The notes under the pieces were generated by a model. It had not been told where the DNA came from, ran no database searches, and worked only from the letters and a program-made list of their open reading frames with translations. DNA of 40,147 bases from an uncultured Porphyromonadaceae bacterium (GTDB lineage Bacteria > Bacteroidota > Bacteroidia > Bacteroidales > Muribaculaceae). Positions 38,770-40,147 of this stretch are shown in pieces; the first letter of the stretch is position 1; the number at the start of each line of letters is the position of its first letter. Position numbers and translations under genes: made by a program. The DNA lies in assembly GCA_947175665.1 (NCBI GenBank), contig CAMWNR010000008.1, positions 1-40,147 of the forward strand, given 5' to 3'.

Positions 38770-38872
38770 ATCGTTTCTTGATGTTTGAAGTGTTTGATAA
38801 CGCTTTCAAACTGCAAATTTCGTAAATTTTTCTGAATTCCCAATAAATTCCACTCTTTTCCCGCTCCATTTT

Positions 38873-38880
38873 CAAAAATA
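38873..38880 (-). promoter_or_regulatory. Probable -7 promoter element of the lpx operon
   Basis: On the minus strand this reads TATTTTTG, about 104 bp before the lpxD ATG. No clear -33 box was seen. Confidence 0.4.
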
Positions 38881-38935
38881 TGTTGATAAACATATATTAA
38901 CTGCGTTACAATTCTACTCAATATTACATTTTTTA

Positions 38936-38967
38936 TTTGTCAAAGAGATTAAATTTATCTAATTTTG
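38936..38967 (+). promoter_or_regulatory. Strong promoter ahead of the structured gene-free region
   Basis: TTTG (38936-38939), 20 bp, TAATTTTG (38960-38967). It faces away from lpxD, and no protein-coding gene follows for 530 bp, so it probably drives an RNA gene. Start expected near 38974. Confidence 0.75.
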
Positions 38968-38973
38968 CAAGAT

Positions 38974-39224
38974 AAGAAAGTGGGTGTAGTCTGTACTTAT
39001 CCGGATACAATCACTTATTGAAGTTGTTTAAACTTATTTCTTCGTTAAGATTTCGTCAGATTTTTGAGTGGATTTCTCCATCCGAAGAGGGAGTTTAGCG
39101 TGCTAAGCGACCGATGAGGAGGAAGAAAGCCGCCAAAAAGATGGCGGAAGATTAATGAAGAGATTATAAAATTCACAACATTTTACGATTATATTCAATC
39201 GTAAATAAGGTTATACAACTTCAA
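38974..39224 (+). ncRNA. Candidate structured non-coding RNA, 6S-like layout
   Basis: No ORF with codon signal is present. TTGAAGTTGT (39018-39027) pairs perfectly with ACAACTTCAA (39215-39224) as a closing stem. Inside, 39036-39048 pairs with 39152-39164 (13 pairs, two of them G-U). Between these stems the 5' strand is only 8 nt, while the 3' strand is about 50 nt and carries a perfect 9-bp hairpin (39182-39190 with 39197-39205). The apical arm holds GTTTAG/CTAAGC (39093-39108) and CCGCC/GGCGG (39130-39147). A closing stem, a central bubble with a 3'-side hairpin and an apical arm is the general plan of 6S RNA, and the length (about 207 nt between stem ends) is near. Family membership is inference; SRP RNA, tmRNA and RNase P signatures were not found. 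Confidence 0.5.
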
Positions 39225-39233
39225 AAATATAGT

Positions 39234-39264
39234 TTTGATTTATTGGATTTTTTTGCTATTTTTG
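39234..39264 (+). promoter_or_regulatory. Promoter of pckA
   Basis: TTTG (39234-39237), 19 bp, TATTTTTG (39257-39264). Start expected near 39270, giving a leader of about 228 nt. Confidence 0.72.
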
Positions 39265-39269
39265 CACTG

Positions 39270-39498
39270 AAATTCAGAAGGTGAGGAGCCGTTGATTTTT
39301 TTACGCGCTTTTAACCTTTAGTTTAGAGGATGCTTACTTTTAAAAGTAAACACGCACTTAATCTAAACGAGGCATTAGATTGTTATAAACAATAGAGGTA
39401 GAGTATCCGCGCTGTTATGCCGTATCTACCCGAGACTGACAGGTAAAAACATACATAAATATTAATAACCCGTTTAAAATCAATTATTCTCAAAAACT
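39270..39498 (+). promoter_or_regulatory. Long structured 5' leader of pckA
   Basis: GTTTAGA (39321-39327) pairs with TCTAAAC (39362-39368) and encloses the palindrome TTACTTTTAAAAGTAA. TTGTT/AACAA (39380-39392) forms a small hairpin, and GGTAGA (39397-39402) pairs with TCTACC (39425-39430). No known riboswitch was recognised. With the RNA candidate and two promoters, this accounts for the 729-bp gene-free stretch 38770-39498. Confidence 0.45.
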
Positions 39499-40147
39499 AT
39501 GGCAGAATTAGATTTGGCACAGTATGGGATTAAGGATGTGAAGAAAATCATCCACAACCCCTCTTACGAAGAACTTTACAAGGATGAAACCAACCCCGAA
39601 CTCACAGGTTACGAAAAAGGTATTCAGACTGACCTCGGTGCTGTAGACGTAATGACTGGTATCTACACCGGCCGTTCGCCCAAAGACAAATATCTTGTTA
39701 AGGATGAAGTTACCGAGAACACCGTATGGTGGACTTCTGAGGAATATAAAAACGACAATAAGCCCATCACTACCGAAGTATGGGACGAACTCCGCGAAAA
39801 GGCTGTCAAGGAACTTTCTGACAAGACTCTCTATGTAGTAGACCTCTTCTGCGGTGCTAACCCCGCTACCCGTCTTGCCGTACGCTTCATCATGGAGGTG
39901 GCTTGGCAGGCTCACTTCGTTACAAACATGTTTATACGTCCCTCTGAGGAGGAACTCAAAGACTTTAAGCCTGACTTCGTTGTATTCAACGCTTCTAAGG
40001 CTAAGGTTGAAAATTACAAGGAACTCGGCCTCCACTCTGAGACTGTAGTGGCATTCAACATCAAGGAGCGCCAGCAGGTTATCCTCAACACTTGGTATGG
40101 TGGTGAGATGAAGAAGGGTATGTTCTCTATGATGAACTACTTCAACC
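39499..40147 (+). CDS. pckA: Phosphoenolpyruvate carboxykinase (ATP), 5' part
   Basis: Interconverts oxaloacetate and phosphoenolpyruvate with ATP/ADP; in anaerobic Bacteroidales it usually works toward oxaloacetate, fixing CO2 on the route to succinate. The first 216 codons are visible and the gene runs off the window; the family is about 535 residues. Seen: [17 protein letters not shown], substrate-binding [44 protein letters not shown], and [18 protein letters not shown] at the edge, a conserved block that includes a metal-binding lysine. The ATG at 39499 is fixed by this opening. It has its own promoter and a long structured leader. Confidence 0.96.

Follow-up and report, generated by a model that had tools for sequence, protein, structure and literature searches.

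What is the strongly structured block of DNA lying between two protein genes near the end of this sequence? The window, i.e., the whole stretch of DNA analysed, comprises 40,147 nucleotides of a contig (CAMWNR010000008.1) from an uncultured bacterium of the family Muribaculaceae. An earlier note, made from the sequence alone, had read the block as a promoter-driven RNA gene with the layout of 6S RNA, namely a divergent 6S RNA or an undescribed structured RNA. The gap between the flanking genes, which that note named lpxD and pckA and put at 530 bp without genes, measures 729 bp according to the list of open reading frames (ORFs), and two promoters lie within it:

38936..38967, + strand: promoter P1, with the -33 element TTTG at 38936-38939, a 20-nt spacer and the -7 element TAATTTTG at 38960-38967, pointing into the element
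39234..39264, + strand: promoter P2, with TTTG at 39234-39237 and TATTTTTG at 39257-39264, directly past the element and 5' of the next gene

The promoter said to face the block is present in the sequence as P1, which conforms to the Bacteroidota type (consensus TTTG / TAnnTTTG; PMC7366714); a scan for the sigma-70 consensus, which does not model Bacteroidota promoters, found 5 sites where 5.2 were expected by chance. Strong pairing had also been rightly noted, as the segment 38972-39240 folds with a minimum free energy of -91.5 kcal/mol against -52.3 (sd 4.5) for shuffles (z -8.73), none of the 200 shuffles doing as well. The perfect 10-bp outer stem (TTGAAGTTGT/ACAACTTCAA) is there too, and is formed by the pairing of a transposon's own inverted repeats, described below. 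The central bubble and two apical hairpins, on the other hand, are replaced in the computed fold by a single long hairpin with one apical stem. As for the 9-bp hairpin on the 3' side, it exists in the window copy but is not conserved among copies: two of the four full copies in the genome possess it (the window copy and L002) and two lack it (L003 and L004), and a paired run of at least 7 bases occupies the site in 13 of 40 copies. The 229-nt leader of the downstream gene (39270-39498) folds little better than its shuffles (z -1.42).

The note saw no recognised family signature in the block and proposed a search of Rfam, and indeed no Rfam 15 family matched the whole window at gathering scores. 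Searching 38770-39520 up to E=10 returned a single match, on the other strand, with E 4.1 and 11.8 bits against a cut-off of 86. Nine other loci searched up to E=0.1 gave five matches, all away from the elements, i.e., one tRNA (L274) and, at 1947-2115 of L269, four models of eukaryotic miRNAs. 6S RNA has been seen experimentally in Bacteroides (PMC7366714); its model RF00013 found no match in the bacterium's own genome and was positive in 5 of 14 control genomes, and the second 6S model, RF01685, was silent in the own genome and equally so in its control genomes. The own genome does hold a Bacteroidales-1 RNA (RF01693, 108 bits) at C15:23346-23540 (L007), which is not claimed here as a 6S RNA. 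A hammerhead-like reading of the motif CUGAUGA...GAA was discarded, the motif being present without the three surrounding stems.

The nature of the block emerged from its copies. BLAST of 38930-39490 against the own genome (2.33 Mb in 166 contigs) recovered the structured block alone at five further places, namely three full copies of 97-99% identity and two fragments of 96-97% identity at contig ends, a location which suggests that the element breaks assemblies. The element has matches in 63 of the 111 genomes of its genus (26 of the 46 that are of good quality), and the 20-bp end was found at no more than one mismatch in 10 of 12 genomes tested, up to 90 times, a reversed control pattern occurring 0 times. 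Plasmid and phage records held no match to the window copy. Boundaries were set by comparison with other copies and by analysis of target duplications:

39020..39222 (203 bp), RNA strand +: MITE (miniature inverted-repeat element), GAAG...CTTC
39020..39038, + strand: left terminal inverted repeat GAAGTTGTTTAAACTTATT, to which the ends of IS5-family elements are almost identical
39204..39222, - strand: right terminal inverted repeat AATAAGGTTATACAACTTC, diverged in the window copy
39017..39019, no strand: left flank triplet ATT, the right triplet being AAA at 39223-39225, i.e., the window copy lacks an intact duplication

The terminal inverted repeats are roughly 20 bp long and show compensated changes at both ends, and no ORF of 60 aa or more in the ORF list lies inside the element. 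Among 79 of 89 element pairs (length 190-210 or 176 bp, flanks of at least 12), the 3-bp flanking triplets are identical in 52 copies, where random re-pairing predicts 14.8, and are AAT/ATT in 38 of these 52; the other 27 have no identical triplets. A 1-bp target duplication, as a first flank tally had it, was abandoned, since the duplication is of 3 bp once the ends are trimmed to GAAG...CTTC. At L127, one copy is inserted in another with ATT on both sides, at a place where other copies read GATTGCC. Transposition is strongly supported by this anatomy, and, on the evidence of its copies and ends, the window block is a copy of a short mobile DNA element (MITE) and not a 6S gene. The same ends also bound a 253-bp element with a different interior (L055, 2219-2471), and in G020, G051 and G055 end pairs stand merely 44-92 bp apart.

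A divergent 6S RNA, or any other stand-alone small RNA gene driven from the promoter at 38936, would account for that promoter, the length and the long-hairpin outline. It has to contend with a multicopy mobile repeat flanked by duplications at its ends, a promoter lying outside the element, an Rfam silence broken by the one other-strand match alone, and the absence of RF00013 from a genome when 5 of 14 controls are positive. In addition, the bubble and the 3' hairpin are not conserved, the consensus fold being a long helix with symmetric G.A motifs and no conserved central bubble. We give this reading practically no credence.

A transposase from elsewhere probably moves the MITE, and IS5-family elements of related genomes are candidates for its source. 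A 957-bp element in G085, flanked by GTT triplets and with ends almost identical to those of the MITE, codes for a transposase of 276 aa that matches NF033580 ("IS5 family transposase") at 3.7e-39, above the cut-off, and PF13340 at 8.5e-14; protein searches with this transposase gave matches in 39 of the 111 genus genomes, fragments and distant homologues included. Ends were checked at 30 loci, which yielded eight full-length elements of 957-961 bp, two shorter pairs (L154, L157) and 20 loci with no pair. Identical triplets flank five of the eight (L143, GTT; L144, ATT; L145, AAT; L147, ATT; L152, AAT), the triplets differ at L146 and L148, and L149 is cut off. The insertion sequences (IS) with identical triplets belong to G085, G001, G026, G070 and G067 and show 0-2 mismatches per 14-bp end, the transposase reading frame of the G067 copy (L140/L152) being broken. 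When the eight IS loci were searched with model R2 of the RNA described below, no RNA module was found (one match, 16.2 bits, E 0.11). The 957-961 bp IS5-family elements in related genomes are the likely mobilisers. The own genome has no match to the G085 transposase protein and none to PF01609, a domain present in 8 of 10 genomes searched, and scanning it for the end pattern at 0-1 mismatch, as judged by eye, disclosed no new end pair; lacking a transposase match, its copies may now be immobile or stranded. In G085 (C160, L133/L138), an end-matched IS5-family element is apparently nested in a longer element whose inverted repeats start CACGGCTGACGCATCTTAA.

If the ends explain mobility, the interior calls for an explanation of its own. 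Its features in the window copy are the following:

39035..39165, + strand: conserved RNA core (model R1), matched by R1 at 140.9 bits with the window copy in the training set, and showing covariation
39053..39148, + strand: apical domain (model R2), common to elements with unrelated ends, matched by R2 at 90.6 bits with the window copy in the training set
39084..39117, + strand: tandem G.A motif, GAAGA at 39084-39088 facing GATGA at 39113-39117, with the apical hairpin at 39093-39108

Alignment A1 contains 40 of 83 oriented copies, at less than 93% identity and not selected by pattern, on which RNAalifold finds 58 pairs, 35 of them kept with both sides changed. In covariation tests made without phylogeny correction and on a structure derived from the same alignment, the 46-pair core has 94.4% of its cells paired versus 80.0% when shuffled, both-side changes in 32 of 46 pairs versus 20.5 (sd 1.9) in shuffles, and a covariation score of 0.484 versus 0.198, and 0 of 500 shuffles reach any of five measures. 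Sliding the partner by 1-3 columns makes pairing fall to 46-55%. The compensatory changes in relatives that the earlier note had proposed to look for are therefore found, within a test of that design, and its alternative of an undescribed structured RNA has held up, as the helices covary and no Rfam family matches. Tandem G.A pairs recur along the helix: G.A/A.G occupies columns 66-67/98-99 and 69-70/95-96 in 37-39 of the 40 copies, with an A-U between these two apical tandems in all 40, and G.A occurs at columns 73-74/91-92 in 32-33 copies, at columns 31-32/132-133 in 24 and 33, and partially at columns 41-42/122-123 (31 and 20 copies). For the apical domain taken separately, 24 of the 26 pairs of R2 show both-side changes. 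Alignment A4 covers 53 of 62 apical domains (L044, L097, L203, L214, L240, L249, L262, L264 and L266 being left out), and the invariance of GAAGA/GATGA in it is by construction, because A4 was largely chosen by a fixed pattern. Taken together, comparative evidence strongly supports an interior that would fold into an RNA hairpin of about 130 nt kept by selection.

Selection could conceivably act on the hairpin as DNA, where a single-stranded fold would join the ends for transposase or excision and no RNA function would exist. The closing stem is after all made by the inverted repeats, the RNA orientation shows no bias relative to neighbouring genes (27 v 20), and G.T wobbles and tandem G.A pairs form in DNA too. 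Since both insertion orientations occur, however, a DNA fold should favour no strand, and one strand is clearly favoured: G.U cells outnumber A.C cells 201 to 20 in A1 and 106 to 21 in a second tally (34 of 41 matches in Duncaniella muris), and the core strand is the more stable as RNA in 40 of 40 copies (mean -75.8 versus -54.7 kcal/mol for the other strand). As insertions occur in both orientations, this asymmetry points to RNA, and we regard selection as DNA alone as improbable. With a selected RNA hairpin as the preferred reading, the next question is when that RNA would be made.

According to a simple ORF heuristic, 73 of 74 loci are intergenic, with few (3) in convergent and many (22) in divergent gene pairs; between tandem genes, the RNA strand runs along transcription in 27 cases and against it in 20 (p 0.38), and orientation-dependent cis-regulation was rejected on that absence of strand bias. 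Within 50 bp of the edges of 82 copies, 35 Bacteroidota -7 boxes read into the element and 9 away from it (p 1e-4), the inward ones being at the 5' end of the RNA in 20 cases and at its 3' end in 15, from which it appears that copies tend to be placed downstream of a promoter, whichever end it faces. At 52 bp from P1, the window copy is barely outside the 50-bp count. Could it be a cis-regulatory leader of the downstream gene, named pckA in the earlier note? The element does precede that gene, and its RNA has the gene's orientation, but copies are present at many other places in this genome and in others, and P2, downstream of the element, would allow expression of the gene in the element's absence; this reading seems very unlikely to us.

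The RNA turned out to extend beyond elements with the ends of the window copy. Model R1, i.e., the core without ends, had matches in 146 of the family's 225 genomes and in 20 of 26 genera, with at most 15 candidates scored per genome, a number often reached, and several of these loci have ends quite unlike those of the window element. In the own genome, four end families bear the module, namely GAAGTTGTTTAAAC, GAAACTGTTTAAATTTATGT, GAGTGTGTTTACTTTTAAA and GACCCCAACCCACAAGAAATG. Among 25 copies tested whose ends belong to families other than that of the window element, 21 have identical flanking triplets, invariably TAA/TTA; the four with differing triplets include L326, the only GAAACTGTTTAAA copy. 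Target triplets of IS5 elements follow ANT/TNA rules, and TAA/TTA presumably fits IS5 subgroups. One such end family touches the window itself: a 32-bp palindrome at 39326-39357, in the leader of the downstream gene and with TTA on each side, is, judging from its halves, two abutting MITE ends of the GAGTGTGTTTACTTTTAAA family, i.e., a second insertion without interior, its ends having 3 and 2 mismatches to the GAGTGTGTTTACTTTTAAA end and being the sole matches in the window at up to 4 mismatches.

Scanning named genomes for the motif gave at least 111 stretches, and among those listed 98 were of Bacteroidales type by title (including Muribaculaceae, Prevotella, Barnesiella, Alistipes, D. muris, Alloprevotella and Xylanibacter) and 13 were not. 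R2 was then counted in 13 genomes or records chosen through pattern matches. Four Bacteroidales strain or isolate genomes have 16 to 59 matches each, i.e., 41 in D. muris DSM 103720, 51 in Alloprevotella sp. Lung230, 16 in Xylanibacter caecicola and 59 in Muribaculaceae Isolate-036. Over 392 genomes drawn across the phylum (strict filters, 10 candidates scored each), three match, namely the own genome, G627 of the same order with at least 10 matches, and G437 of the same class; among the rows listed, four other genomes of the same order have no match. The G437 match (C3:458728-458823, L328), in another order of the class, is single and weak (38.8 bits). In these samples, the predicted RNA has a patchy distribution in the order and is seldom found elsewhere in the phylum. 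Two contigs of the viral catalogue IMG/VR (L315, L323) carry the module at 82.9 bits, the core of L315 being identical to copies of Muribaculaceae Isolate-036 (L347 v L349); the contigs are perhaps host sequence.

Outside the phylum, two Verrucomicrobiales metagenome-assembled genomes (MAGs) had 4 and 7 R2 matches, with best E values of 3.7e-8 and 7.1e-8. A Kofleriaceae MAG had 18 (best E 8.7e-7) and a Nannocystineae MAG had 9 (best E 1.8e-6), both groups belonging to the Myxococcota. There was no R2 match in four further MAGs that had been motif-positive before, two from Acidobacteria and one each from Omnitrophota and Actinomycetota. Eight off-phylum loci were viewed, and inverted repeats flank the RNA in several, weak ones in others. 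R1, searched in 92 of 123 loci, is not always in step with R2, as L266 (Acidobacteria) reaches 33.9 bits with R1 yet its genome has 0 R2 matches, and L213 (Nannocystineae) has no R1 match though its genome has 9 with R2. Homology across phyla, i.e., with Verrucomicrobia and Myxococcota, is likely.

Some loci hold the module twice. Among the matches of the R1 locus search and the R2 matches listed (34 of 41 in D. muris, 49 of 59 in G690, 48 of 51 in G688 and 16 of 16 in G689), module pairs less than 400 bp apart are convergent in 16 cases, on the same strand in 4 and divergent in 0. The convergent pairs comprise 10 from one element family of D. muris, 5 from the R1 locus search and 1 in G690, and the same-strand pairs are L252 and three in G690. 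The cases in which both modules were seen inside one pair of ends are the D. muris family, L259, L263 and L274. A convergent pair yields a sense-strand module whichever side is transcribed, but the same-strand pairs show that this does not hold as a rule. The argument from doublets is modest because the 10 D. muris doublets are one family and four pairs are on the same strand.

How might such an element live? We think it quite probable that the window block is a non-autonomous IS5-type MITE carrying a selected RNA module. An IS5-family transposase encoded elsewhere would act on the ends of about 20 bp, and insertion would take place mostly at AAT/ATT triplets, with 3 bp duplicated and often directly past promoters. 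A neighbouring promoter, e.g., P1, would then read through the core strand, and the transcript would form a single long hairpin in which tandem G.A pairs recur, a fold conserved through compensatory change. It is possible, though we rather doubt it, that the RNA works in read-through transcripts for the persistence of the element, the likeliest means being attachment to a common host factor that makes insertion into 5' leaders tolerable; that factor would recognise the tandem G.A helix, and with two convergent modules, transcription arriving at either end would meet one in sense. Against this reading, the RNA strand between tandem genes is not biased with transcription (27 v 20) and promoters point inward at both ends (20 v 15), neither of which has to follow from an RNA that acts purely in cis. 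The window element, between two promoters, is probably near neutral.

A broader proposal, which we hold tentatively and consider less likely than not, is that the apical domain, which has two or three tandem G.A motifs around GAAGARG...CYGATGA, is a transferable RNA, selected in its own right and captured by many unrelated ends. It would have spread across Bacteroidales, Verrucomicrobia and Myxococcota and would bind a widely conserved cellular component, convergent doublets having evolved to supply a sense copy from either strand; the RNA, and not the ends, would be the lasting unit. Bacterial MITEs are usually seen as shrunken IS elements with empty interiors. One RNA fold in elements with unrelated ends raises the question of which RNA a transposon needs. 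The predicted RNA is abundant and testable in common gut bacteria, and annotation would gain a new RNA family from it.

How does this element compare with known systems? With 6S RNA (RF00013, RF01685) it shares in outline a long hairpin of about 200 nt; it differs in being multicopy and mobile, in matching neither RF00013 nor another Rfam model and in having no conserved central bubble. The IS5 family (NF033580; PF13340/PF01609) offers a transposase, nearly the same ends and 3-bp duplications, but the MITE has its ends alone in common with it, the eight IS loci searched with R2 giving no RNA module. Also known are the MITEs with IS5-type ends of Porphyromonas gingivalis, i.e., BrickBuilt, MITE293, MITE700 and PgRS (PMC4596501), which are likewise found in Bacteroidales and match IS5-family elements at their ends, BrickBuilt being intergenic with predicted long stem-loops (PMC4596501). 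By contrast, BrickBuilt and PgRS hold tandem repeats and BrickBuilt has no BLASTn match beyond its species (PMC4596501), and the parts of that paper drawn on here describe no covarying RNA domain common to several end families (PMC4596501). Among the titles and abstract openings searched, no description of one RNA domain common to unrelated-ended elements was found. Small mobile repeats that are largely intergenic and have proposed RNA structures are known as ERIC/IRU, NEMIS/Correia and CIR (PMC2229807), and effects on mRNA stability or processing have been reported for ERIC and NEMIS (PMC2229807). These are separate families in their own lineages (PMC2229807); unlike them, the module described here is a single RNA found throughout an order, and probably in several phyla, within elements whose ends are unrelated.
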